Positions 26,905 to 48,067 of a DNA stretch of 64,000 bases are shown piece after piece. The DNA is from Pseudomonas sp. ISL-84. GTDB taxonomy: Bacteria > Bacillota > Bacilli > Bacillales > Cytobacillaceae. The position numbers and the translations under genes are program-made. Under the pieces are notes generated by a model, which saw only the letters and a program-made list of their open reading frames with translations, made no database searches and was not told the origin of the DNA. The stretch lies in contig JAGGRA010000017.1 of NCBI GenBank assembly GCA_018613035.1, positions 1 through 64,000 of the forward strand, read 5' to 3'. Position 1 is the stretch's first letter. Each line of letters begins with the position of its first letter.

Positions 26905-27906
26905 TTATTCCGGCAGGAAGTCATTTGTGAAAGCTTTGCCGGCATCTAATTCTTTATCTAAAAGGCCATTTTCATGCATCCACTTTGCATAGTTTTCCCA
27001 AACCTCAAGCTTTTGTTCACCCCATCTGGCTGCATCGTCCTGATAACGGGGAGAAAGCCATTCCTGGCTCCTTTTAACCAGTTCGCTATCAAGGTCTGGA
27101 GCGTTCTCGAGAAGAATATCAGCTGCTTCATCAGGGTTCTCAATAGCATATTCATAGCCTTTGGATGCCGCTTTGACAAATGCTTTTACGGTATCCGGAT
27201 TAGTTTGTATCATTTTCTCATTGGTAGCCAATACAGGTGTGTAATAGTCCAGTTTTTCCGAGTAGTCAGTCAGGTAGACCATATTAATCTTTTCCCCTCG
27301 CAGCTCGGCTTCTACACCTGTCCAGCCATAATAAATCCATGCAAAATCTATATCTCTCTTAACAGCCGTAAAAAAATCAGCGTCCCCCATGTTGACAATC
27401 GAAACTTTCTCAACATCTGCATTCTCTGTTTTCATCAATGACTCGATTACTGATTTTTCAACCGGCGCTCCCCAGCCACCATAAGTTTTCCCTTCAAAAT
27501 CCTTTGGTGTTTTAATATTTTTATCTGCTGGGGAAGCAAAGCCGGATGTATTATGCTGAATAACAGCAGCGACCGATACGAGCGGAACACCCTGTACCCG
27601 GGCTTCCGTGATGCTTTCCTGATAGCTGACACCGAAATCCGCCTTACCCGATGCCGTCAGCTGGTCTGCACCAGCTTCTCCAGGCATAATGATTTCCACG
27701 TCAAGTCCTTCCTCTTCAAAATAGCCTTTGTCCTTAGCTGCGTATAAGCCTGTATGATTGGTATTTGGTGTCCAGTCCAGAACAACTGTGACTTTCTTCA
27801 ATTCTTCTTTGGCCTTTTCTTCGTTTCCCGGCTGTGTTTCTTGCCCATTCCCGGCACAGCCAGCGAGCATTAGGACAGAACAAACAGCTGCCATCCATCT
27901 TTTCAT
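26905..27906 (-). CDS. thiY: NMT1/THI5-like pyrimidine precursor-binding lipoprotein (ThiY-like)
   Basis: This 333-residue lipoprotein has lipobox MLAGC with Cys17 and an NMT1/THI5 domain (VTVVLDWTPNTNHTGLYAAK, MPGEAGADQLTASGKADFGV). That domain binds formylaminopyrimidine or HMP. The reading frame extends up to 28014, but those codons overlap the riboswitch terminator. GGAGGG lies 6 bases before ATG 27906, with an adjacent ATG at 27909. It is first in the five-gene operon. Confidence 0.88.
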   Translation of the reverse strand: MKRWMAAVCSVLMLAGCAGNGQETQPGNEEKAKEELKKVTVVLDWTPNTNHTGLYAAKDKGYFEEEGLDVEIIMPGEAGADQLTASGKADFGVSYQESITEARVQGVPLVSVAAVIQHNTSGFASPADKNIKTPKDFEGKTYGGWGAPVEKSVIESLMKTENADVEKVSIVNMGDADFFTAVKRDIDFAWIYYGWTGVEAELRGEKINMVYLTDYSEKLDYYTPVLATNEKMIQTNPDTVKAFVKAASKGYEYAIENPDEAADILLENAPDLDSELVKRSQEWLSPRYQDDAARWGEQKLEVWENYAKWMHENGLLDKELDAGKAFTNDFLPE

Positions 27907-27967
27907 CATTAACCCTCCTGTTTGTTTTATGTAGTCTTTTTCCGGAAAGATAATTATAGCTTGCCCT

Positions 27968-28004
27968 GAAAAAATAAAAACGCCCCGGCATAGATACCAG
28001 AGCG
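27968..28004 (-). terminator. Expression-platform terminator of the TPP riboswitch
   Basis: On the minus strand CGCTCTGG pairs with CCGGGGCG (with G-U pairs) around an eight-base loop, then a T-rich tract. It sits between the aptamer and thiY, as expected for transcriptional control by TPP. Confidence 0.85.
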
Positions 28005-28036
28005 CATATAACAAACATTTTTATGTTTAAGAATAT

Positions 28037-28122
28037 GTTCCCTACGCTGGTATGAGCCAGATCAGGTTCAAAGGGTCAACATCTTATGATGAAGTCTCAA
28101 CCGGCTAAACCAGTTCCCCTAC
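28037..28122 (-). promoter_or_regulatory. TPP (THI-box) riboswitch
   Basis: The minus strand carries the conserved THI-box words GGTTGAGA, ACCCTTTGAACCTGATCTGG and CTCATACCAGCGTAGGGAA. TPP binding would favour the downstream terminator and switch the thi transport operon off. Confidence 0.97.
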
Positions 28123-28215
28123 AATTCTTGCTATTCAATTTTAGACAAACAATCTGCAAAAATAAATACCTTCATGAGGCGTTCTATTTTAAAGCTTCTA
28201 TGACTTTCCTTCACC

Positions 28216-28278: not shown

Positions 28279-28475
28279 TTGGCCGATCCCTCCCCTTATT
28301 TGGCCGATAAAATGGCGGTTTTGGCCGTTAAAAAACAGAGATTGGCCGTTTAAACGGTATTTTGCTAAAATTGGCCGGTAAATCAACCGGTTTGGCCGGT
28401 ATTTTGCTAAAATTGGCCGGTAAATCAAACAGTTTGGCCGGTATTTTACTAAAATCGGCCGATAAACCCTTTTCT
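28279..28475. repeat. Array of nine 21-bp TTGGCCG units
   Basis: TTGGCCG (TCGGCCG in the last) starts at 28279, 28300, 28321, 28342, 28371, 28392, 28413, 28434 and 28455. The spacing is exactly 21 bases except for one of 29. Later units alternate between TTGGCCGGTAAATCAA and TTGGCCGGTATTTT followed by GCTAAAA, giving a 42-bp higher-order repeat. It lies just upstream of the thi promoter. An apparent frame on the minus strand with YRPILAKYRPN repeats is a by-product. Confidence 0.9.
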
Positions 28476-28648: not shown

Positions 28649-28682
28649 ATAATAAAAACCTCCTGTATGAGGTTTTTATTAT
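28649..28682. terminator. A/T-rich 14-bp hairpin after the YkvA-family gene
   Basis: ATAATAAAAACCTC (28649-28662) pairs perfectly with its complement (28669-28682) around a six-base loop. It probably terminates the minus-strand gene upstream. On the minus strand its 3' arm also contains AGGAGG placed before an ATG at 28650 that opens 41 codons. Confidence 0.6.
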
Positions 28683-28744: not shown

Positions 28745-29158
28745 TTATTCCATTTCAATCGCCCGGCTTTCCTTCCAGATTTTAAATTTTTCAAGCTCTC
28801 CTGTAATTTGGCTTACAGCAAATCCAAGCACAGCTGCATCATCAATGATCCCCATTCCTGCTAAAAAATCGGGTACAAGGTCCACTGGTGAAACAAAGTA
28901 CAAGATTGAAGCGATAATAAATAGGATCGATTTTTTTGAAATGTGCCTGTAATCTCCTTTTGACCAGGATTTAACCAAGTCAATCAATAGCTGGAAATTT
29001 TCCCATATATCACTTAATGAAGATTTATTCTGATTAGCTTTTGTTGTCGCTTTGCTTAGCAATCCTCTTGTTTTTACAGGATCTTCCGCATATCTCTTGG
29101 CTCTAGAAGAGAACCTTTTAAAGCCTTCCCGGTAATCTTTTGTTTCCGTCTCTGGCAT
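28745..29158 (-). CDS. YkvA-family (DUF1232) membrane protein
   Basis: This 137-residue protein has the DUF1232 core with a helix containing LYFVSPVDLVPDF and the DDAAVLGFAV tail. The family function is not established. AGGAGTG lies upstream of ATG 29158; the longer frame to 29221 lacks a ribosome binding site. It is divergent from the sirtuin gene and ends at the hairpin at 28649-28682. Confidence 0.85.
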   Translation of the reverse strand: MPETETKDYREGFKRFSSRAKRYAEDPVKTRGLLSKATTKANQNKSSLSDIWENFQLLIDLVKSWSKGDYRHISKKSILFIIASILYFVSPVDLVPDFLAGMGIIDDAAVLGFAVSQITGELEKFKIWKESRAIEME

Positions 29159-29301
29159 TGCAATCACTCCTATATTGATAAATGGCGTAAACACATATAA
29201 TCTATTATTTACCGCATACATAGGAAGACATAAACATTTTATCCTTTGAAAAAGATGGAAATAGTATTTTAGAGGAATAATATATTTCGGAGATGATAAC
29301 T

Positions 29302-46771: not shown

Positions 46772-48067
46772 TTGAAATTTTTATCCAATAAAGAAATGAA
46801 TAAAATCGCTAAAAGTACACTGGCATTAGTAATTGCAGGTACATTCACATTCTCAGCTACAAGTGCATTTGCAAATGAAAATAATAATGAAACTAATCTT
46901 GAGACAGTTGAGTTAAATAGCGAAACTGCAGCAGAAGCAGAGGTTACGACTGTAACTGAAACTGACGCAGCTGAAGCAATAGAAAAAGCGGAAGGACAGC
47001 TGGAAGAGATTGAAGCTGAAACTCCATCCCTATTACCTGGAAGCTTCTTCTACTTTGCGAAGCTTACATTGGAAAAAATTAAGCTTGCCCTTACTTTTGA
47101 TGAAGTAAAAGAAGCTAAGTTACTCGCTACATATGCTGCTGAGCGTCTAGCAGAAGCAGAAGCCCTTTTTGCTGAAGGCAAAGAAGAAGAAGCTCTTGAA
47201 GCAATAGAAAAAGCATTAGAACATATTGAAAATGCAGATAGCATTGTTGATGATGAGAAAGAGTCAGACAGCGAAGAACCAAAATCAGACGAAGAAAATT
47301 CTGATGATGAAAATAAAGAAGACGAACCAGCTAATGAAGATGAACCAGCTGATGAAGATGAAACAGTTGAAGAAGATGTTGCAGTTGAAGAAGATGTTGC
47401 AGTTGCAGAAGATGAAACAGTTGAAGAAGATGTTGCTTTAGATGATGAAGTAGTTGCAGAAGAAGATTCAGTGGAAGAGGTTAAAGAGATTCTTGCTCAG
47501 AATATTATTTCCCTCAAAGCAAATTTGGCTAAATTTACAGAAAGATTTGATGAAAATCACCCTGCGATTCTGGCAATGGAAAAGAATATTGCAAAGTTCA
47601 CTAAAAAATGGGCTGATAAGTTAGCAAAAATAGAAGAAGAGTCAGAAGAAGTAACGGAAGAAGAGCCGGTAACAGTTGAAGAACCAGCAACAGATGATGT
47701 TGCAGTTGATACTGAAACAGAAGAAACAGTAACTGAAGAGACAGTCACTGAAGAGGAAGAAACTGTTGTTGCACCAGTAAAGGTATCAAAAGCAGAAAAG
47801 GATGCTGCTAAGGCTGAAAAGAAACAAGCCCATGCTGAAGAAAAAGCTCTAGAAGCTAAAAAGAGAGAAGAAGCCAAGCAAGCTCGTGCAGAGGCTAGAA
47901 AAGCAGAAAAAGAAGCACGCGAAGCAGCTAAAAAAGCGGCAAAGGAACAGCAAGCTAAAAAAGTCCAAGCAAAACAAGATGAAGCAAAGAGCAATGGCAG
48001 CAAAGGGAAAGAAAAAGCAGAAGAAGCTAAGGGCCAAGGGAAAGAGAACAAAGGAAACAAGCAATAA
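46772..48067 (+). CDS. Secreted, largely disordered DUF5667-type protein
   Basis: This 431-residue protein has a signal peptide (SATSAFA-N, about residue 35) and a helical DUF5667-like block at about 85-150 (SLLPGSFFYFAKLTLEKIKL followed by ALTFDEVKEAKLL). A very acidic repeat (DEDETVEEDVAVEEDVAVAE type), a second short helical block (about 235-290) and a Lys/Ala/Glu-rich tail follow. The start is TTG 46772 with GAGGTG at 8 bases. The sigI-rsgI pair starts 122 bases downstream of its stop. Its composition resembles the disordered outer part of RsgI, so a shared envelope-stress function is possible (inference). Confidence 0.75.
   Translation: MKFLSNKEMNKIAKSTLALVIAGTFTFSATSAFANENNNETNLETVELNSETAAEAEVTTVTETDAAEAIEKAEGQLEEIEAETPSLLPGSFFYFAKLTLEKIKLALTFDEVKEAKLLATYAAERLAEAEALFAEGKEEEALEAIEKALEHIENADSIVDDEKESDSEEPKSDEENSDDENKEDEPANEDEPADEDETVEEDVAVEEDVAVAEDETVEEDVALDDEVVAEEDSVEEVKEILAQNIISLKANLAKFTERFDENHPAILAMEKNIAKFTKKWADKLAKIEEESEEVTEEEPVTVEEPATDDVAVDTETEETVTEETVTEEEETVVAPVKVSKAEKDAAKAEKKQAHAEEKALEAKKREEAKQARAEARKAEKEAREAAKKAAKEQQAKKVQAKQDEAKSNGSKGKEKAEEAKGQGKENKGNKQ

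Follow-up and report, generated by a model that had tools for sequence, protein, structure and literature searches.

Phased 21-bp repeat arrays with GGCCG cores in Cytobacillus and relatives as candidate docking sites for DNA-binding proteins

We analysed a stretch of 64,000 nucleotides (the window) in which nine repeats on a 21-bp grid are flanked by a DUF1232 gene and by a thi operon with a TPP riboswitch, both on the minus strand, and we found related arrays at other loci of the same genome and in relatives. We judge the chances to be evenly balanced that the window array belongs to a family of chromosomal arrays on which one or more putative DNA-binding proteins dock, a reading based on comparison of sequences. 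A multi-site landing pad for a protein was among the possibilities raised when the window was read by itself (the sequence-only reading), and it now appears the most likely of them, since the phasing is conserved, the spacers change and other family members exist.

Layout of the array and of its family

The array had been described as nine units on an exact grid with one 8-base slip, and the starts and steps agreed with this description, one step being 29 bp (21 + 8) and all the others 21 bp (Table 1). The sequence TTGGCCG is present in eight of the nine units and the ninth carries TCGGCCG; each 21-bp unit combines an asymmetric 12-bp core, TTGGCCGNTAAA, with a spacer of about 9 bp. The nine units are real, but they form two blocks rather than the single array that had been proposed, the first with four GGCCG[A/T]-type units and the second with five units, mainly GGCCGG. 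In the second block GGCCGGTAAA and GGCCGGTATTTT alternate and the final unit is GGCCGATAAA. A 42-bp super-repeat, attributed earlier to alternating unit types, was recovered by Tandem Repeats Finder at 28355-28466 (score 189). Because the repeats come every 20-21 bp, the cores in one block face the same side of the helix. The earlier exclusion of CRISPR also stands, as units of 21 bp with spacers of about 9 bp do not have the repeat and spacer structure of such loci, and there was no Cas name among the family matches listed for the flanking proteins scanned. Two stretches elsewhere in the window (47314-47478 and 47660-47765) are tandemly repeated in units of 15, 18, 36 and 54 bp; GAA and GAT codons are frequent there, and the repeats are perhaps within coding sequence.

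Table 1. Features in and around the array (window coordinates)
Feature	Position	Strand	Basis or detail
First thi gene, ORF (NMT1/THI5-like substrate-binding protein)	26905..28014	-	ORF, Pfam PF09084
TPP riboswitch of the thi operon	28022..28130	-	Rfam RF00059, 73.2 bits
A/T-type block, four 21-bp units (starts 28279, 28300, 28321, 28342)	28279..28362	+	cores GGCCGAT, GGCCGAT, GGCCGTT, GGCCGTT
8-base slip separating the A/T-type and G-type blocks	28363..28370	+	
G-type block, five 21-bp units (starts 28371, 28392, 28413, 28434, 28455)	28371..28475	+	
Degenerate outlying (tenth) unit, ATGGCTGATAAA	28497..28517	+	42 bp past the last regular unit
Near-palindromic terminator-like hairpin between array and DUF1232 gene	28649..28682	+	consensus scan
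DUF1232 gene on the other side of the array	28745..29221	-	ORF, Pfam PF06803

When the whole genome was searched with GGCCGNNAAAN{9,12}GGCCG, 49 matches were obtained compared to 5 for the reversed pattern, and the spacing, read by eye from the list, was exactly 21 bp in 47 of the 49; at least one match (C11:54791) is probably a chance pair. Seventeen further loci were taken from this genome, and 16 of them held at least three units when one core mismatch was allowed, while with the exact core GGCCG[A/G/T]TA at least three units were present in 13, two in three and only degenerate units in one. The sequence-only reading had suggested a scan of the genome and of relatives for other members, and they were found, at 16 further loci here and in 16 of 25 genomes of the genus Cytobacillus. 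The other nine genomes of the genus gave no match, and the arrays are thus dispensable. A second array type with a 20-bp period, in which CTGACCGATA and GTGACCGATA units alternate, was found in the same genome (contigs C4, C25, C36 and C38), and full sites can be composite, with a GACCG block in 20-bp steps followed by a linker, a G block of five units, another linker and an A/T block. Arrays of the 20-bp CTGACCGATA/GTGACCGATA type were also seen in genome G005 (L316-L328), either separate from the 21-bp type or adjoining it.

The composition of the blocks was evaluated with 44 blocks (193 units) from this genome, G001 and G041. The commonest block size was five units (24 of 44 blocks). Mixing of G and non-G at position 8 occurred in only 8 of the 44 blocks, compared to a shuffled mean of 35.3 and a shuffled minimum of 25, and in G-type blocks TATT units stood side by side in 1 of 107 neighbouring pairs. 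Alternation, meaning that a unit resembles the next but one (i+2) more than its neighbour (i+1), was clear in six of the eight groups tested (at most 16 of 2,000 order shuffles as extreme), which bears out the alternating types behind the 42-bp super-repeat; it was weaker in G165 (145 of 2,000 shuffles) and absent in G321 (958 of 2,000). Of 35 G-blocks, six had a linker motif upstream, detected with a probe drawn from such linkers (0.5 on average and at most 3 in shuffles), and five of the six copies, from three sites, shared one offset; another linker probe matched 2 of the 35 (shuffled mean 0.2, maximum 2), both at one site. The recurrent linker suggests copies of one composite element, and it thereby favours the main rival to docking arrays, an ordinary dispersed non-coding repeat (REP/BIME- or MITE-like) that is copied among intergenic places and persists through renewed spread or through gene conversion, with no cellular function. 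We regard this rival as possible, if rather doubtful.

Two further explanations concern the repeats themselves. In one alternative, the array is a coding heptad repeat with seven codons per 21 bp, and a minus-strand ORF of 107 aa does cover it; the 8-base slip shifts the frame inside this ORF and many arrays have 20-bp steps, so that we rejected the proposal on frame and consider it scarcely credible. In another, the units are tandem sigma-28-like -10 elements that act as a decoy for a sigma factor. The -10 consensus of this class is GCCGATAA, with a spacing of about 15 nt, and it overlaps the core CCGATA found across the order. From TAAA to the next GCCGATAA there are 11-12 nt rather than about 15, and the GGCCGGTA and GGCCGTTA types depart from the consensus, leaving the decoy very improbable.

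Orthologous sites and divergence of cores and spacers

The sequence-only reading had placed the array 60-260 bp upstream of the -10 box of the thi operon. A TATAAT on the minus strand (28221-28216) fits this distance by eye, but it is absent from the promoter scan list; the true start of the first thi gene is probably further inside the ORF. In the 19 species examined at the thi site, the array was present in three (G000, G002 and G010, those of G002 and G010 being more degenerate than that of G000) and as a relic in G004, while 14 had a compact array-free spacer of 83-98 bp and G051 was left unassigned. Seven further thi-site loci, more distant or truncated, had zero units within the stretch read. 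Since 14 of the 19 species keep the operon with a compact spacer, the thi operon does not need the array, and the suggested role at the thi promoter was not supported. A site for a thi-specific regulator was likewise rejected, the orthologous site being mostly array-free. The same pattern of an array in three of 19 species and a decayed one in another is what a dispersed repeat might leave, and because sites come and go in this way such a repeat stays the main rival.

Sixteen of the 17 further loci have flanks in common with some other array-bearing locus (no shared flank was obtained for the window site in that comparison); at 15 of them, including L174 and L177, another species has an array in the same gap between genes, and at L184 the partner array lies just past the aligned flank. 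The gene purM was present in 35 of 36 genomes, and among the 30 purF-purM loci read, the gap between the two genes held an array in 19 and none in 11, a degree of retention that counts against a dispersed repeat. These 19 arrays were of G type in nine, of A/T type in eight and mixed in two. Both at purF-purM and beside the enolase gene, species differ in which of the two block types they carry, and by eye the spacers appear homologous, as if specificity had been switched whole. On the purM and purF trees the block types are intermingled (four changes on each, of which three and two, respectively, are forced by well-supported branches), and exchange across species at purF-purM is likely; recombination is as good an account as repeated switching of type. 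Another dispersed repeat, gtctagctccagcgcc ... aaggcgcttgcgcttttc with variants, was observed at purF-purM in several species, either after the array or alone (L219, L221, L223, L224, L230, L236, L239, L240 and L241).

Across nine orthologous sets, pairwise differences amounted to 0-9% at the cores (positions 3-7, 9 and 10) and 20-50% at the spacers (positions 13-21), with only rows that align unit for unit used at sites other than purF-purM, registers of small sets set by eye, and the pta and alt sets the least certain. In the purF-purM set, for which the first four units of 11 of the 19 array rows were compared (duplicates and others dropped by choice), spacers differed by 26% and cores by 7%. 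For comparison, purM from 10 of those 11 species (G009 was left out as its gene start was not found) differed by 25.5% at third codon positions and by 2.8% at first and second positions. This difference between cores and spacers is the strongest sign in these alignments that the cores are probably under sequence-specific constraint. Copying or gene conversion of a dispersed repeat should carry the spacers along, yet the spacers diverge like third codon positions and the cores do not.

Genomic placement and distribution in relatives

None of 74 arrays in eight genomes lay within an ORF as called by a simple gene caller of our own. Fifty-one were between co-directional, 17 between convergent and 4 between divergent genes, and 2 were at locus edges; the background gene pairs of the same loci were 233 co-directional, 31 convergent and 27 divergent. 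Avoidance of ORFs is shared with other extragenic repeats and is in keeping with a dispersed repeat. Another point in favor of that rival is that the proteins scanned beside arrays in G165 and G405 (20 in all) are named otherwise than the Cytobacillus ones; against it, no transposase name appeared among the family matches listed for flanking proteins. The arrays resemble REP/BIME elements in being dispersed, extragenic, composite and modular. They differ in being asymmetric direct repeats on a two-turn grid, whereas REPs are palindromes in alternating orientation, and the units here showed no palindromic character, folding no better than controls with swapped spacers. REPs are described as binding several proteins (PMC2817692).

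Arrays between co-directional genes ran in the same direction as these genes in 27 cases and in the opposite direction in 24. The absence of a strand preference speaks against an element that works in the transcript, as an RNA structure, attenuator or terminator, even though some arrays lie inside likely operons, e.g., purF-purM. Fold z-scores were negative against dinucleotide shuffles for 13 of 13 arrays on both strands, but when the cores were kept and the spacers swapped, real arrays folded no better (mean z −0.12 and −0.20 for the two strands, 20 blocks). As the spacer-swapped controls fold equally well, the fold signal lies in the core with its self-complementary GGCC; an RNA structure is disfavored by these controls, and we think a transcript-level element improbable. 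Bent DNA, another suggestion of the sequence-only reading, gained partial support; it would act through phased tracts that curve the helix without any dedicated protein. In all 13 arrays, the curvature predicted by a wedge model was above that of dinucleotide-shuffled sequence (z 1.9 to 23.6), an excess due mainly to the phasing, since a phased repeat of any kind scores high; compared to column-permuted arrays of equal periodicity the excess was small (mean z 0.86, 20 blocks), and curvature leaves the conservation of the CCG core and the block-specific position 8 unexplained. We therefore rejected curvature alone, given its small effect against the fair control, and hold it to be unlikely as the explanation of the arrays.

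To place the arrays relative to the origin, dnaA was taken as the origin, places within 5 kb were merged into clusters and single one-mismatch places were included; three of the Cytobacillus lists came from searches that allowed one mismatch, in which the control gave 4 to 9 matches per genome. Clusters fell in the origin half in 11 of 12 cases in G001, 13 of 15 in G041, 14 of 16 in G009 and 20 of 24 in G005 (KS p 4e-5 for G005, one of several tests, uncorrected), four genomes that belong to one genus, share sites and are not independent. Smaller sets gave 6 of 8 in G165 (p 0.024), 6 of 8 in G405 (p 0.029) and 4 of 4 in G349 (p 0.053), all uncorrected, and G378 was without origin bias (1 of 4 clusters), with 10 of its 14 matches resembling another repeat. 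In G321 the arrays lie 0.67-1.6 Mb from dnaA, and this genome was left out of the origin test, its contig being incomplete. The enrichment may reflect conserved gene order near the origin, the counts being uncontrolled for intergenic density and gene order.

Beyond Cytobacillus, the 16 more distant genomes gave one match, a different repeat, and the control pattern matched once in each of 5 of these 41 genomes. Three consecutive GGCCGNTA at 20-21 bp were found in 9 of 397 genomes of the order with 0 control matches, the match in G025 being a different repeat, whereas three CCGATA cores at 20-21 bp were found in 57 of the 397 genomes and 32 of 135 genera, compared to 12 matches in 7 genomes for the reversed CCGATA control (our own count of the table). 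Most of the 57 were judged from the listed matches, and a few, e.g., G172 and G378, may hold other repeats; G041 and G012 are probably one genome, and we deduced the name of the order, Bacillales, from relatives that bear names. The bases that precede CCGATA vary by lineage (GG, GA, CG, CC and others). By far the most three-CCGATA matches at 20-21 bp among the 397 genomes, 413, were counted in G108 (f30 g34, 3.4 Mb). In a sample of Bacillota, 7 of 398 genomes matched, including the genome of the window, and the 6 of 391 outside the order did so at one place each. Among the matches listed, arrays were read in Cytobacillus oceanisediminis, C. firmus, Cytobacillus sp. NCCP-133, Neobacillus notoginsengisoli, Bacillus sp. 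J33, FJAT-29790 and NTK034, a strain named Paenibacillus sp. FSL R5-0490, Ectobacillus antri and Sporolactobacillus putidus. Many of the contig-scan matches listed from other phyla resemble unrelated repeats. The three-unit pattern was also present in five viral contigs, whose sequence resembles other repeats.

A self-amplifying satellite had been put forward as well, and it may have been an origin of the arrays. In Cytobacillus, however, the predominance of five-unit blocks and the divergent spacers are unlike a homogenising satellite. The Ectobacillus antri arrays (L072, L082, L114 and L127), with about 16-21 near-identical units in mixed 20- and 21-bp steps, look homogenised and were apparently amplified recently.

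Arrays as candidate docking platforms

A protein docking on one face of the DNA would be consistent with the phasing at two helical turns, the conservation of the asymmetric cores, the near-neutral change in spacers, the lack of strand preference and the coherence of blocks. One or more proteins would dock with one protomer per core, every two turns, and would assemble cooperatively over a block; paralogues or variants would read the GGCCGG, GGCCG[A/T] and GACCG types, and several such complexes on origin-proximal DNA might compact, tether or otherwise organise that DNA. Protein binding has more support than any organisation of the chromosome, and none of the flanking proteins scanned points to a binding protein. 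We propose only tentatively, as a doubtful extension, that the arrays could belong to an unnamed chromosome-organising system of Bacillales, in which lineage-specific proteins would sit on phased CCGATA-core arrays near the origin and the unit types would form a specificity code that changes whole while spacers drift.

Several known systems share parts of this design. The ram sites of RacA in Bacillus subtilis are short GC-rich inverted repeats; they have in common with the arrays an origin-proximal enrichment (seen in four Cytobacillus genomes, weaker in G165, G405 and G349, and not found in G378), and they differ in being inverted repeats rather than phased arrays. Plasmid iterons are direct repeats about two helical turns apart that are bound by one protein, whereas the arrays described here are chromosomal and many per genome, and the flanking genes examined are metabolic or otherwise chromosomal, with no adjoining gene for a replication initiator. 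The window array had zero BLAST matches in plasmid and phage records at E 0.001, and we rejected a plasmid or phage origin. The binding motifs of RefZ are conserved across Bacillus in their position relative to oriC (PMC6657595); they are five nearly palindromic motifs, not arrays. Dispersed extragenic repeats are a known kind of element, and no published account of such phased, block-coded and origin-favoring arrays was found among the papers listed, judged by titles and abstract openings, with most subscription journals outside coverage.

Should they prove to be repeats and nothing more, the arrays would still offer an unusually clear example of cores under constraint between spacers that evolve freely. 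If they are binding platforms, they would represent a class of cis-acting chromosomal sites carried by about one in seven of the sampled genomes of the order (57 of 397), and their sequence would provide a handle for fishing out the protein. Origin-side enrichment would tie the arrays to chromosome segregation or sporulation, in genera that have been little studied for these processes.
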